Assembly (NCBI GenBank): GCA_903813345.2
Contig: CAIIXF020000002.1
Span: forward strand, 7,587,555 to 7,651,554
Source of the DNA: Owenia fusiformis
Lineage: Eukaryota > Annelida > Polychaeta > Sabellida > Oweniidae
Direction of reading: 5' to 3'
DNA length: 64,000 nt
Position numbers and translations under genes: made by a program. Each line of letters begins with the position of its first letter. Positions within the stretch are counted from its first letter, which is position 1. Of this stretch, positions 19,991-27,390 are shown piece after piece. The notes below the pieces were generated by a model. It had not been told where the DNA came from, did no database searches, and worked only from the letters and a program-made list of their open reading frames with translations.

Positions 19991-20312
19991 AAAGGTGGGC
20001 GAGTTGTTTGTAGGAGGATTTTTTCATGAATTTCGCTCATGATTTTCATCCAAAAAAACATCAATACACTTTAAAACATTTTGTTTACTTTAAGATTACA
20101 CCATGTAATCCAAAAATATATTTCTCATTTTCAAAGATAATCCATGGATTAACACCCAGGTATTTTTATTTTTCAATCTTCAGAGGGCTGGGAATCAATG
20201 ATGCTCAACGCTTTTGAATACGATAAATGCTGTTTTAAATAGGTTTTACGTATGCCAATAATTTCTCAATCTCAAATTATGTAAGCTGAATGCATTCCAT
20301 AATCCCTAGAAT
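19991..20312 (+). repeat. Left terminal inverted repeat
   Basis: Reverse complement of 26073-26399, with only scattered mismatches. A diverged fragment also lies at 20-210. Confidence 0.85.
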
Positions 20313-20711
20313 ATTCTCTTGGAGGAATCCAATGGTAATCCAATGGTAGTTCCAAGCAGATTTTTAGATGGCAGGTAAGTAAATTCTTTAGTACTCGCCT
20401 TATTGGGTTGAATTAGTTTATATTCAAAAATTATATATGATTCTGTAAAGATGTCCGTGTGGACGCTATATAGATTGCACACGCATGGTAAGCTGTATAA
20501 TCCTATATTATGTAATACAAGTACAGTTTTGGTTGACATGATTGTGACTGAGTGAGAGATTAAACTCTTTAAGGTAGTTCTGCATGTTGATAATTTTTAC
20601 TAATTTTGGTGATGAATAAATTATCTGAAAATTATAAATTGGGCAATACTTTTGACATTTTAAAGTGTGTGGTAATCTATATAGAGTGCGCGATTGTCCG
20701 TACTCGGGGAC

Positions 20712-20745
20712 TATAAATAGGGCCAACCAAAGTTTGGTTCAGATA
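20712..20745 (+). promoter_or_regulatory. TATA box and initiator of the transposase gene
   Basis: TATAAATAG at 20712-20720 is followed about 28 bp later by an initiator-like TTCAGATA. A leader exon ends at 20805 with a consensus donor, AG|GTAAGTAAC. The spacing is that of a normal RNA polymerase II core promoter. Confidence 0.65.
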
Positions 20746-21186
20746 GGTGTGAGAGGACGGTCGAAACAGTGTGCTAAACATAAATTCGCATGTTTACAAA
20801 TCTAGGTAAGTAACATATTTTATATTGCAAATAATTATTCAAGATGTAACTCGTAAGGTATATTTTTATGTATTGATATAGTGTTGGGTATATATTTTGG
20901 ATAAACATTGAAAACTTCCACTGCATTATTTATCAGGCCGATACACATAAAATATCAACGTGTTGTGGATGATTGCTCACGTAATGATAAGTACATGTGT
21001 ACGACTTACTGATCCTTGGCATATGTACAATATGTATTGCAGAGTGGCGAACTGTACAACTGCTCAAGATATCTAAATGTTTTAATTTTGTTGATTATTC
21101 TCTTATTATCTGTTGTTTACAAATACTGATTTATGTTTTGCTCGGTTCACTCCTCAGCATTCTTTCATTGAGATCAAATGATGTAA

Positions 21187-21350
21187 TGGCGGATCTGGGC
21201 AAGCCCCCCCCCCTAAGATGAGTTAAAAATGTTGAGCTCTAAAGTGCTTTAGGGCCACAATTATTGGGCATTTCTAGGTATTTCTAGGGCATTTAGGGAT
21301 GCCAATTTGTATTGCCCCCCCTCCCTTTTTGATTTCTGGATCTGTCCCTG
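21187..21350. mobile_element. Possible hAT-type MITE in the transposase intron
   Basis: The ends GGCGGATCTGGGCAAGCCCC and GGATCTGTCCCTGGG resemble the CAGGG(G)CGGATC ends common in hAT elements. The right end is inverted relative to the left. The match is weak and no target duplication was confirmed. Confidence 0.3.
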
Positions 21351-21509
21351 GGATGGGTCATATCAAATTACTTTTTGTGACTCAGTGAAACCTATAAATA
21401 AGCTAGCAATACGATTGAAGGACCAAAATGCAATATTGTATGATCGTTTTGAGTGATATCCATTTTATTACGAATGAGCAAAGCGAAAAAACATGTCAGA
21501 GAAGCATCA

Positions 21510-21950
21510 ATATATACACGGGGTGCCAACTATGACGTAAAACGACCATTAATTTGAATTTTAGACCTACCCGATGTTCGAAAATCAAGGATTGTGAGTG
21601 TCATACTGCACCGATTTTCTTCAAATTTGTTTTATACAAAGCAAAACAAAAATGCCTTTCTGCCGATACATTGTCTTATTGTACAGAGTCTCTCGTTTTT
21701 GCGGCATTTTGATCCCCAGCTGAGAAAAACGCTTCTCAAAGCTTGGGACCAAGACGTCGCTAAAACGAGAGACTCTGTATAACAAAATAATGTACCAACA
21801 GAAAGGCATTTTTGTTGTGCTTTGTATAAAACAAATTTGAAGAAAATCGGGCAGTATGAGACTCACAATCCTTGATTTTCGAACATCGGGTAGGTCTAAA
21901 AATTCAAATTAACGGTCGTTTTACGTCATAGTTGGCACCACGTTGATATA
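21510..21950. mobile_element. Foldback element, ~440 bp, nested in the transposase intron
   Basis: The two halves are reverse complements over almost their whole length. The ends are GGTGCCAACTATGACGTAAA and its inverse. A diverged, interrupted copy lies at 26769-27390. Its position between the leader exon and the coding exon makes it intronic. Confidence 0.85.
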
Positions 21951-22034
21951 AGAGGAAAACAATCACAATTGCAGTTGTTTGTTCTCGCTGTATATATTAT
22001 CTAAACTATATGTTGTTATATGTTCCTTTTCAGT

Positions 22035-23612
22035 ATGGCTGCAAAGAATAAAAAGTTCAAGAAGTTTATCGAACTCTCATTCAACAGTAAGGAGGAGAAG
22101 GACAACTTCAACGAGCAATGGAATGGCTTCCGCAAAAAGCGTCCAGATTTGTCTACGATTGTGCAAGTTATGTACTATTTCTTATCCCTGGCTGTAAAAT
22201 GCACAGATACTGGTAATGAAGCTGTTCCTGATGCCAATTTCCACTACAACAGTTTTGTGAACATTACCAAGGAACAGAGTAAATGTGAACGCTTATTTGT
22301 TACGTGTGAGTCGTCCATCAATTCGCTCGTTGGTGCCGTGTATAGCCTGGGTCAACGCTGCCATTTTAGTAGAACTGTCATCGTTACTAGATTGGAAGAT
22401 TTTGCGAACTTTGTGGCCACATTCACAATTTCAAATGGCAAGCACACATTTTTATGGAAGTCATCGCCTTATATCGAAGGTTGGTCAAAATTTTTCGTGA
22501 ACGAGAAAATGGCTTTTGGTGTAGTTTGTAGTGGACTTATGTATACTCCATTCACCAGATTTTTAAATGCTACTACATTAGGAAGCACGAACGAGCGTGT
22601 TTATAATGAAACATGCAATCGTTTATCTACGATTATATCCAACGAAGCCAAAGCGTCTAAAGAAAGAGCGATACAAAATAGTTTAGCAGGCAGTGGGGCG
22701 TCTGGGATAACCATGGAAACCGATGCGTGTTTTTCTGCATTCCGCAATGCCAAGAGGAGTATAACATTTGGCCTTTGCAACGAAACGCATACTGTATTGG
22801 CAGATAAGGTGAAATCAACAAATCACGATGACAGTTCTGTCCAACGACATGAAACAATTGCAACAAAGGAAATTCTAAATGATTTCAAACAGGAAGGAAT
22901 TAAAGTTCGTTGCATCGTGCACGATTCTAACAATAGCGTGAGCAAGGTCGTAAAAGACGATTTTCCAGAAGTAAAGGAACAAAAAGACGTTTGGCATGTG
23001 ATTAAAAATGTTATGTCATCTTTCAAAAAAATTTCGAAAGGGACAAAGAAAACTGAAAATATATGTTGGCATGGTCAGCTATTTGATAAATATGATGGAA
23101 TTAAAAATCACATATGGTACTCCATCATGCACTCAGGAAATGATGAGACTCTACTACGAGACAGTCTAGATGCGATCGTGTCACATTACCAAGGATACCA
23201 CGAAAGTTGCAGGCTTACGAGCCATTGTGTAAGAAACCCAAGATATGCCCCATCTCGTGTGCTACTTACTGATCCAATTGCAATTGACCTCTTATCGAAA
23301 TTTGTCCATGACACTTCAATATACAAAAATCCGCATCTCGTACTAGAAGGACTTAGCACAAGTTACGTTGAAGCGGCAAACAATGCTTTGCGTTCTTTTC
23401 TGCCCAAAAGGCATTCCTTTGGTGATACGTCATTTCAAGTCAGGGTTGATTTATTTATTTTGCGTTGGAATGAAAATGTTAATCGACCATTCAAGAGAGC
23501 GGTTGTTCCTCAAAACGAGGGAACTCCAAGAGAAAACAGTGGGCGAAAATATCAATCAAAGAAAACATTTCAGTATTTGGAAAAGATTTGGATTAGTTAC
23601 CTGGAAGCATAG
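22035..23612 (+). CDS. Mutator-like DDE transposase (525 aa)
   Basis: An acceptor, TTCCTTTTCAG, ends at 22033 and the ATG follows at 22035, so I take MAAKNKKF as the N-terminus. The open frame runs upstream to 22020, but that part is intronic. Counting from this Met, the putative catalytic residues are D230 (METDACFSA), D297 (IVHDSNNS) and E446 (STSYVEAAN). A DVWH motif stands at 318-321, 21 residues after the second Asp; a (C/D)xxH motif in this place is typical of Mutator transposases. The tail with PKRHSFG and the NENVNR stretch matches a transposase family common in aquatic invertebrates and fish. The frame is intact and an AATAAA follows at about 23906. The window shows both terminal repeats, so the element could be autonomous. 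Confidence 0.8.
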   Translation: MAAKNKKFKKFIELSFNSKEEKDNFNEQWNGFRKKRPDLSTIVQVMYYFLSLAVKCTDTGNEAVPDANFHYNSFVNITKEQSKCERLFVTCESSINSLVGAVYSLGQRCHFSRTVIVTRLEDFANFVATFTISNGKHTFLWKSSPYIEGWSKFFVNEKMAFGVVCSGLMYTPFTRFLNATTLGSTNERVYNETCNRLSTIISNEAKASKERAIQNSLAGSGASGITMETDACFSAFRNAKRSITFGLCNETHTVLADKVKSTNHDDSSVQRHETIATKEILNDFKQEGIKVRCIVHDSNNSVSKVVKDDFPEVKEQKDVWHVIKNVMSSFKKISKGTKKTENICWHGQLFDKYDGIKNHIWYSIMHSGNDETLLRDSLDAIVSHYQGYHESCRLTSHCVRNPRYAPSRVLLTDPIAIDLLSKFVHDTSIYKNPHLVLEGLSTSYVEAANNALRSFLPKRHSFGDTSFQVRVDLFILRWNENVNRPFKRAVVPQNEGTPRENSGRKYQSKKTFQYLEKIWISYLEA

Positions 23613-23959
23613 ATAAATTGTTTTTATTCGTAAACAAACGTCCAGAGAAAATATATAAATAGGTTGAACATAGATAAAAATGTTTTTATTAACTGTGATA
23701 TATATGTTTGTTTGACTGGGTACTTTGTATCTGGTTTAGATTACAAAAATACAATATTATGTACCCAGAAATACATTCAAAAATTGTATGTAGTGTTATA
23801 TGTTTCACAGGCACAATAGCAGAGTCTTATGTTTATTTTTGGTAATACAACTTCAATATTTTATTCACAATATGAACAAAACCTTTTCTGAATTGAATAG
23901 AAATAAATAATTATAGCTTTGTCAATGTTTATTTATATTGTATATGGATCCCCAGTTCT

Positions 23960-24640
23960 TCACTGCCATTTGCGACCTTGATATGGCACCCCCTCCACAT
24001 TTGGGTAGCTCGTCCTCACCAACTGGAAAATAAATACCTCTCTTACATGTTACGTGTATGTGCGGCCCTCTAACCAGTACCAAAATGATGAACGTCCATT
24101 TGCCGATAATCTGAGAGACACATAAATGTATAAATCTGTCGTAACATATCTATTTTAACAGTGTAAATTATGTGAATTTTCCAAAGATGATAATCCGAAA
24201 AGTCGATGTACCTTTGTAATGCAATCAGGCATTATCTGTCTTAGGAAAATTACATTCGGATGATTCCTGTGTCCAGGTGTCATCGCCCTTTTCTTCGCGA
24301 CGTATTCTGGTCTTTGCCACGCTCCTAAGTTTTCCTCCAATGACCAGAAACGTTTATACAGCTTTTTTCTCTTGATGCGATTCCTATCTGATGGGTTATT
24401 TTCATTGTCCAAACCAAGCCTGGGAACGACCGATATCTGCCCCACACATTTCAAGGTAGCAATGTTCACAGACCATATTGTAAGAGAGTGTCCATATACA
24501 TAATGGTTTGTAAAAATACTTACATTCTCATTCAGTTCAATACATAGTTTAATACCTTTAGAATAACATAATAAGGTATTCAACAAAAAAATCCACCTAT
24601 CAATAGTGATTATATTGGTTATTTTGGAATACGAAAACAA
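23960..24640 (-). CDS. Second transposon gene: protein with a P2X7 ballast-like C-terminus, two exons
   Basis: The gene reads on the minus strand. The 3' part of the first exon ends at 24212 with donor AAG|GTACAT, after the residues MPDCITK. The next exon, 24022-23960, starts after acceptor TTATTTTCCAG and adds LVRTSYPNVEGVPYQGRKWQ and a stop, in the same phase. The joined tail fits the pattern P-x-C...R-x2-(F/Y)-P...G-x2-Y-x-G at the end of the P2X7 intracellular 'ballast' domain, which also occurs in many non-receptor animal proteins. AATAAA lies about 30 bp beyond the stop. The open frame extends to 24640, but residues before about VVPRLGLDN may be intron (possible acceptor near 24448), so the 5' end is uncertain. 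Convergent with the transposase and within the same inverted repeats, so probably transposon cargo or a helper gene. Confidence 0.55.
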
Positions 24641-24719
24641 CGGGGCAGCGCAAGCATTATGTGAGAATTATTTTGTACTGCACGAAATCTTCAATGCAAA
24701 CACCCCTTAAAAACAAATA

Positions 24720-26072
24720 AACCCTTCTGATCCGAAAATGTAAACACTTTGGTCAACGTAGCTAATTGTATGAGTCCCTCTAAGTGGATAAAAAGAATTA
24801 TGGTAACATACACCATGGACCATGCATACACATACAATTACAAATGTAAAAATATTGTCCCTTTCATTGATTATCGGTATTTATAATCATGAAAATTAGT
24901 GAAAAATATCGAGACATATCTAACTTAAAATCAGATTGGCTTACAAGTACCCTAAGCTATTTTCACATTTTATTGCAAGAAAATCTTTTTGCAAGGGTTA
25001 CAAAGGTTGAAATATTGTGCTGGCTCTATTTGGCTCTATTTGTATTTTAGGTATTTTTGTGAAAATCAATAGAAACCAATGGCCTCTATTGGAATTGATG
25101 ATATCCACATGTTAAGTCAATGGAGCCCATTCAATGGCAAGTCAATACACCCTTGCTGAACTAAATGACCTCAACCTCAGCCCATGCGGGTCCAAACGCT
25201 CAAATATTTCTACAGTATTATGTGACATTGTATTCTTTATGTTACACCTAAAAATGATTCATTTTGTTCATGGGGATATCATAATGGTAAGTGCACTAGA
25301 CCCTTATTGTAATTGTATGATATCGTATTTGTGATTTGAATATACACTGCGATATTTGAGAAAAAGAATGTTTTGTTTTAGTTTCATTGCAATTCATAAC
25401 CCTAATATCTTAAAGCCAGAATCCTTCCCTGTCATCCAATTTTCTAATAACCTCAGAAGTTCCTACTTTTTAAAAAATACAATTTTCCATGATCATTTTT
25501 ATGTCACCACCATAAGTGGTGACATATTGTTATGGTCTCAAACTTTTTTGTGGACGGTGTTCAGTGGTTGGTGTTTATCATTTGGCAGTTGGTGTCTGTA
25601 ACAAATGGCAGGTGTTGACATTTTGCATGTGAATGCCTTGTCTTGTAATGTAGCCAACTGCAATGGATGTAAAACGGATACAGTTAGCTAATACATTTCT
25701 TGGCATCAATTCAAATCATATGCTAATTTTAGATGAAAATGCTTTTTTCATGTTTTACCACTCATACGGTAAATGCCATAATATCTCGATGTCACATTCA
25801 GGAAAGTATGGCTATCAACAAGTTTTGAATTCTTACAATCCTGGAACACATCTGTCAGGTCAGTTTATGTGTAAAAGTTAATCCCCTAAGCCTTAATACC
25901 TGATGCATGAAATATTATGGATGAGTTACATAATATGTACTCGTGCTATTTAGGTAAATGTTGTGCTGTTTCACCAGATTTGACTGACATCTTTAAATAA
26001 CAACAATTTGATGATCAGACAGCAACAAAACATATTAAGTGGCCAAGACAAAAGAATGTTATTATGATAGGC
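24720..26072. other. Right internal part of the transposon, no assigned gene
   Basis: 25040-25300 is a dispersed repeat with a second copy at 59960-60235, sharing GTCAATACACCCTT. A small inverted motif, TGTCACCACCATAAGTGGTGACA, stands at about 25502-25524. An open frame at 25663-25856 ends at a possible donor (AG|GTCAGT) but is not recognised; upstream exons of the minus-strand gene may also lie here. Confidence 0.35.
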
Positions 26073-26399
26073 ATTCTAGGGATTAAGGAATGCATTCAGC
26101 TTTCATAATTTGAGAAATTATTGGCATACGTAAAACCTATTTAAAACAGCATTTATCGTATTCAATAGCGTTGAGCATCATTGATTTCCAGCCCTCTGAA
26201 GATTGAAAAATAAAAATACCTGGGTGTTAATCCATGGATTATCTTTGAAAATGAGAAATATATTTTTTGGATTACATGGTGTAATCTTAAAGTAAACAAA
26301 ATGTTTTAAAGTGTATTGATGTTTTTTTGGATGAAAAACATAAGCGAAATTCATGAAAAAAATCCCCCGATTCATTCTACAAACAACTCGCCCACCTTT
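26073..26399 (-). repeat. Right terminal inverted repeat
   Basis: Pairs with 19991-20312. The outer boundary is CTCGCCCACCTTT. Confidence 0.85.
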
Positions 26400-26639: not shown

Positions 26640-26771
26640 TTGTTCCATGATACAAATGCAGATGCAGAGGAAGAAGATTTCCTTGCCATTCAGAAGATTG
26701 TAGAATTTTATGAGGCCAATTCATACCTGTTTGACCTCCGCCATGAAAAATACCGAAATAACAAAAAATGG
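26640..26771 (+). pseudogene. MADF-like domain fragment
   Basis: The frame reads FLAIQKIVEFYEANSYLFDL and RHEKYRNNKKW, which resembles the start of a MADF DNA-binding domain (aromatic anchor residues, then a Y-x-N-(K/R) turn). It begins right after a GC-rich repeat and is cut by the left end of a foldback element at about 26769, so only about 40 residues remain. MADF proteins occur as host factors and as the second protein of PIF/Harbinger transposons; which one this came from cannot be told. Confidence 0.4.
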
Positions 26772-27390
26772 GGGTCCAACTATACACGAAAAACTGTTAA
26801 TTTGAATTTTAAACCCACCAGATGTTTGAAAACCAAGCATTGTGAGCACAGGCCCAGGAAGAAAATTTAAATCTCCGCCCCCCCCCCCCTCCAGTCACTG
26901 TATTATGTCAAAAGTAAGTAATACATAGTGAGTGGAAGGGCTATGAACTCTTATTCCCGTGATTGTGATCGTAAGTCTCATACTGCACCGTTTTTCTTCA
27001 AACTTGTTCTATTCAAAGCAAGACAAAAATTCCTTCCTGTTGGTACATTATTCTGTTATACAGGGCCCCTCATTTAAGCGGCGATTTGGTCCCTAGCTAT
27101 GAGAAGCACTTCTCACAGCTTGGGATCCAAACGCCACTATTAAATCGAGGGACTCTGTCCATTAAACCAACACGCCGACAGAAAGGCATTTTTGTTCTGC
27201 TTTTAATCAAAGTCCCCGACAGTGTGAGTCTTCAACATATTTTGACACACTACATGGGTATTCGGCTTTCAATGGAACAAGTTTGATGTAAAACGGTGTA
27301 GTATCAGACTCACAATTCATGATTTTCAAACATGGGGTAGGTCTAAAATCCAAATTAACGGTTGTTGTTGGCAACGCGTAAAACTGAAAG
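26769..27390. mobile_element. Diverged copy of the 21.5-kb foldback element, with insertions
   Basis: It shares the module AGTCTCATACTGCACCG, GAGAAGCACTTCTCA near the centre, and the inverted ends of 21510-21950. It is interrupted at 26845-26970 by sequence containing a poly-C tract, and again near 27220-27290. Confidence 0.7.

Follow-up and report, generated by a model that had tools for sequence, protein, structure and literature searches.

This locus raises two questions: whether a DDE transposase gene and a convergent minus-strand gene lying between long inverted repeats form a single mobile element, and whether the second gene encodes a relative of the P2X7 ballast domain. The window, meaning the whole 64,000-nucleotide stretch analyzed, comes from an Owenia fusiformis genome of 498 Mb. 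A sequence-only reading had drawn a Mutator-like transposon whose ends are arms of about 325 bp. The arms were found, at 19994..20312 on the plus strand, with AAA directly before it, and at 26073..26396 on the minus strand, with TTT directly after it. They are about 320 bp long and 92% identical to each other across 330 alignment columns, they match GGAGGGCGAG at the ends of the element they delimit, and they do enclose both genes.

The two genes belong to one mobile element, with limits other than these arms. In comparison with eight sister copies (L001-L008), element homology to the window is confined, within the stretch searched, to approximately 20660-24783, with transposases 99% identical; the other matches between window and sister copies represent a nested short element and its relatives. 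The nested element is palindromic and occupies 21511..21950, a span across which L001 aligns on both sides without the insert. A related palindromic short element, 75-88% alike over pieces, occurs at 26771-27366, just outside the arm-bearing host element.

The limits of sister-copy homology, together with empty host sites, define a transposon of 4,116 bp at 20664..24779 on the plus strand that begins with AG and ends with CT. The left target site is TTAA (20660..20663), and TTAA followed by AGTGTGTGG is found in seven of the eight sister copies, no left end having been found for L006. The right target site (24780..24783) reads CTAA in the window, which is TTAA with one difference. At the corresponding position six of the eight sister copies have CCCT followed by TTAA; L002 has one T fewer, and L006 has TCAA. 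Seven copies from three related families likewise combine TTAA with AG...CT ends.

What, then, are the arms? For the arm sequence, the genome offers 877 candidate places; 40 were scored, and AAA precedes every one of the 12 arm ends fetched. Five complete arm elements of 2.8-5.6 kb each lie between AAA and TTT. In all five the insertion point of the two-gene element is intact, with a single TTAA, and both genes are absent. Because the sister copies share only about 20660-24783, and because all five arm elements run through this point uninterrupted, the transposon does not end at the arms. These belong to another, unrelated and numerous element. Inspection of 15 bases per side shows that the window and all five complete copies follow one pattern, insertion within AAATTT without a visible target duplication, as described for Spy transposons of the PHIS superfamily (PMC4482050). 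This host element (19994-26396 in the window; L025-L029 elsewhere) is numerous and non-coding, with inverted arms of about 320 bp. It is designated Spy-like on the strength of its insertion pattern; the ORF lists of two copies, L026 and L029, contain no transposase frame. Full copies without the minus-strand gene thus exist for the armed element as first drawn; for the real TTAA-bounded element this is not true.

Kolobok transposons are characterized by TTAA target site duplication, by termini of the form 5'-RR ... YY-3', and by a C/DxxH motif in the transposase, followed in almost all lineages by a zinc finger (PMC9587614). The AG...CT ends of the window element and of the other families agree with this description, as does the TTAA target site, present in the window itself as TTAA at the left end and CTAA at the right. 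The right-flank CTAA counts against assignment to Kolobok, as does the near absence of any terminal inverted repeat past the first bases in the window copy.

The transposase supports the assignment. Its gene, at 22035..23612 on the plus strand, encodes 525 amino acids with D230, D297, DVWH at 318-321, E446, and zinc-finger residues H384, H389 and C398. Among five aligned transposases D230, D297, D318, H321, E446, H384, H389 and C398 are all invariant, so that both the C/DxxH motif and the zinc finger of Kolobok are present. The sequence-only reading described an intact spliced gene; the frame is indeed open, and the splicing, a possible 5'-leader intron at 20806..22033 with GTAAGT after CTAG and TTTTCAG before T, is suggested by splice signals only. 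The genome contains 64 transposase matches, seven of which, including the window, span all 525 residues at 99-100% identity.

The Pfam model hit by this transposase, PF20700 (2.4e-12), carries the name "Mutator", and that name, along with the enclosing arms, speaks in favor of one Mutator-like transposon carrying both genes between arms of about 320 bp. The same label falls on L031 and on KolobokP-type proteins of this genome, and it therefore does not indicate a Mutator (MULE) element. Mutator elements duplicate 7-11 bp of target on insertion; no duplication of that kind is seen here, where the target site is TTAA. The sister copies lack arms, and the five other arm elements lack the genes and retain an empty TTAA site. 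Sister-copy limits, TTAA sites and empty host sites rule out the Mutator element bounded by arms, to which we leave only the most marginal probability, and the element is a member of the Kolobok superfamily. Since the arm elements stand between AAA and TTT, and all five others have a single TTAA at the empty site, the Kolobok element landed in a Spy-like element. We regard as highly probable the full reading, in which a Kolobok of the branch that carries the companion gene KolX inserted at TTAA inside an older, non-coding Spy-like element.

A transposase tree built from proteins of this genome only, with midpoint rooting used for drawing only, contains a split with support 99/98 that separates the window and the L009, L010, L011 and L012 families, together with L031, from KolobokP-type and other PF20700 proteins. 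L031, whose transposase adjoins a KolX gene of the classic type, sits on a long branch, and its placement is unsure. The KolobokP-type elements themselves form long tandem arrays on contigs C313, C418, C443 and C513 (L049, C513:1500-9900). In the array unit, a PF20700 transposase of 711 aa is accompanied by a convergent gene for a His-Me finger protein of 127 aa (zf-His_Me_endon, 7.2e-10). Fourteen units are listed for C513, spaced by 3346 or 3821-3822 bases, and 17 evenly listed units for C313, spaced by about 3345 or 3820 except for a single interval of 4295; such spacing looks as though a repeat of about 475 bp were present, absent or doubled between units.

The second question concerns the minus-strand gene. 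KolX, a protein of the Kol0 Kolobok elements, adopts the ballast fold, and P2X7 arose through fusion with KolX (Kojima and Bao 2022, PMC9587614). In the window, a KolX-like exon 1 runs from MVCEHC to PDCITK (24212..24476, minus strand), and the last exon, LVRTSYPNVEGVPYQGRKWQ and a stop codon preceded by TTTTCCAG, occupies 23960..24022 on the same strand. The donor at exon end 24212 and the acceptor at exon start 24022 join in phase, giving PDCITK followed by LVRTSYPNVEGVPYQGRKWQ and stop. The in-phase join proposed from the sequence is thus borne out, but the window copy of the gene is not intact: the CxxC start and the remainder lie in different frames, the break falling within exon 1. Sister copy L007 and the relatives L009, L011 and L012 have exon 1 in a single frame. 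The one-frame relatives (L007, L009, L011, L012, L033-L036) exhibit C-x2-C-x4-C and a C-terminus resembling MPxCVVxxVRxWYPNPxGVxYMGH.

The homology of this protein to the ballast is less readily established. The profile check proposed with the sequence-only reading came out negative, in that a Pfam search with the joined minus-strand protein, up to E 10, found no match to P2RX7_C (PF20478). Two of ten window-type family members do match P2RX7_C, the better at E 0.012; no window-type protein reaches the PF20478 family cut-off, which L032 and one L031 exon reach. Profile-profile comparison by hhalign of window-type against classic proteins, the classic set being ten P2RX7_C proteins of this genome, gives a probability of 39% and E 3e-4 over 24 columns. 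Against the PDB, the classic family profile finds the solved P2X7 at 1.9e-17, and the window-type profile finds a designed repeat protein as its sole match (8g8i, E 2.5e-4), which covers the N-terminal part and was judged irrelevant.

Each profile was also searched against 2,336 real ORFs and an equal number of shuffled ORFs. The classic profile recovers L038 (1.4e-6) and L036 (6.7e-6, over 78 positions), which are close relatives of each other, then L039 (3e-4), L011 and its copies (4e-4), L034 (0.002), L033 (0.009) and L035 (0.02). The first shuffled ORF appears at 2.9, L037 ranks after it at 4.7, and the window, L007, L009 and L012 are unlisted in this search of the ORF set. In the reverse direction, the window-type profile recovers L043 (8e-4), L044 (0.007), L031 (0.02), L045 (0.04), L046 (0.15), L042 (0.3) and L041 (1.0), seven of the ten classic proteins, before any shuffled ORF appears; the first of these scores 1.7, L040 and L047 fall behind it, and L032 is unlisted. 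The companion protein might be unrelated to the ballast, with its C-terminal PxC..VR..YPNP.G..Y.G likeness due to convergence or chance, and the missing Pfam match for the window protein, the P2RX7_C matches in only two of ten family members, the low hhalign probability and the three classic proteins not placed ahead of shuffled sequence all fit that explanation. The reciprocal profiles nevertheless agree, each placing members of the other set before its first shuffled ORF. In addition, classic KolX is found in transposons of this kind: in L031, and as pieces in L030, which is a decayed element with transposase pieces closest to those of L011 and L012. We therefore judge convergence or chance to be unlikely. 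Sequence comparison points, if weakly, to a relation with the ballast, and the pairing of a DDE transposase with a protein probably related to P2X7 ballast within a mobile element stands as first proposed.

Across ten window-type proteins four cysteines are mostly conserved, as against the seven conserved cysteines named for KolX of Kol0 (PMC9587614). The minus-strand gene of the window is probably a cysteine-poor, reduced KolX. In L030, pieces of a full-cysteine ballast protein lie just upstream of the transposase pieces on the same strand, and their occurrence next to a transposase so near to those of L011 and L012 suggests that cysteines were lost within the Kolobok branch of the window.

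If the two genes form a unit, they should remain together across the genome, and they do. The 64 transposase rows merge into 53 loci, and at 39 of these a window-type KolX-like match lies no more than 8 kb away (at 38, no more than 2 kb), in every case on the strand opposite to the transposase and never on the same strand (0/39). For loci whose transposase spans at least 1 kb the figure is 39 of 44. By simple arithmetic, 80 matches in 498 Mb would place one within 8 kb of a given position about 0.3% of the time. Two of the 53 loci have a classic P2RX7_C match only, and 12 have neither match; nine of these 12 span less than 1 kb, and the three longer than 1 kb count against the pairing. Conversely, window-type KolX occurs at 57 merged loci, 39 with one of the 64 transposase rows within 10 kb and 18 without. 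The count took in all 64 transposase rows and all 80 window-type KolX rows, along with parts of two further row lists (15/41 and 57/115), and omitted rows of families already in the 64 and the tandem-array contigs C313, C418, C443 and C513; entering fewer rows gave the same 39 of 53.

Two gene orders occur among the 39 loci. In 14, the KolX-like gene is downstream and convergent, as in the window, and the transposase is at least 57% identical to that of the window. In the other 25 the KolX-like gene is upstream and divergent, and the transposase shows at most 36% identity; many of these are copies of one family, and the 25 are therefore not independent. Of 74 rows listed for P2RX7_C, 57 exceed the cut-off, and 14 of these have a transposase row no more than 10 kb away. 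Merging gives 41 loci, 10 of them within that distance, so most ballast genes in this genome were not linked to any of the transposase rows compared. Four P2RX7_C frames, each of 234 aa and with almost the same score, C1:42410915 (L032), C1:18767236, C1:43470291 and C3:4193729, have no transposase row within 10 kb among the rows compared, and possibly represent another mobile ballast carrier.

The state of the copies bears on what KolX does. Nine were examined, the window copy and L001-L008, the latter matching the former at 95-99% identity. Four of them (the window, L002, L005 and L006, the last without the exact E-motif string) retain a transposase frame of 535-537 aa, KolX is frame-broken in eight, the window included, and no copy has both genes unbroken. 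Only in L007 do the CxxC segment and the remainder of KolX share a frame, and there the transposase is broken. L001 has an altered CxxC pattern. The beginning of the last KolX exon, with its acceptor, is missing from L002, L003, L004 and L008. Such shared damage in copies so closely similar means that KolX-broken copies have multiplied, and the broken state of KolX in eight of nine copies speaks against a strict need for it. In families L009, L011 and L012 both frames are open. In comparisons across families, six KolX pairs have pN/pS values of 0.36-0.66 and three transposase pairs have values of 0.29-0.64, the silent sites being close to saturated. For two closely related pairs the ratio is about 1.08; one of these is based on very few changes, and in the other (L009-L053) the frame of L053 stops early.

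In the scheme best supported by these observations, a Kolobok of the KolX-carrying branch inserted into a TTAA within an older Spy-like element, its transposase presumably excising the element at the AG...CT ends and pasting it at TTAA. Intact KolX may be a small zinc-binding helper that joins the transposase in acting on DNA or on the complex of protein and DNA. In the window's family it would not be needed in cis, given the multiplication of KolX-broken copies; other copies or families would provide it in trans, or it would be dispensable by now. We give this helper role about even chances. KolX might instead be carried along as a passenger, or serve in anti-silencing or regulation, without acting directly in transposition, as the spread of copies with KolX broken in shared ways would allow; the P2X7 ballast, moreover, is described as holding GTP/GDP and zinc sites of unknown role (PMC9859053). 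Constant pairing with the transposase across families and both gene orders, and purifying selection on KolX between families, argue otherwise, and we hold a passenger or regulatory role to be possible but the less expected outcome.

Beyond the helper role, we put forward, tentatively and expecting that it may well prove wrong, that this Kolobok branch has cut the ballast down to a four-cysteine, perhaps single-zinc, module that has stayed paired with the transposase through a change in gene order. Such a module would reveal the portion of the ballast that is used in transposition, and with it what was passed on to P2X7; if KolX-broken copies still multiply, KolX would be a helper that Kolobok families share in trans. 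A small transposon-borne protein that is probably related to the ballast, and has unbroken copies in the same genome, offers a compact object for testing the role of the fold. The case also shows that nested arms and a Pfam label of "Mutator" can cause a Kolobok element to be misnamed.

The main point, a Kolobok element carrying a ballast domain and serving as the source of P2X7, is a rediscovery of the findings of Kojima and Bao (2022, PMC9587614), where the larger idea that transposons spread the ballast domain is already found. Possible novelties are a Kolobok KolX poor in cysteines, the existence of two gene orders, and the multiplication of copies with a broken KolX; the first two do not appear in the passages of PMC9587614 that were consulted. 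The element resembles Kol0 Kolobok elements in its TTAA target, RR...YY ends, DDE transposase with DxxH, and a second gene whose product is probably ballast-related, and differs in the reduced cysteine set, in a gene order that varies by family between convergent and divergent, and in the broken KolX of the window copy. A few piggyBac families carry a cysteine-poor KolX-like likeness at the C-terminus of a protein (PMC9587614); compared by description, the transposase there is piggyBac, whereas here it is of Kolobok type. Nanor and the C-terminal domain of P2X7 are host proteins derived from KolX according to the same source, whereas the gene in the window is still carried on its transposon and is far more diverged.
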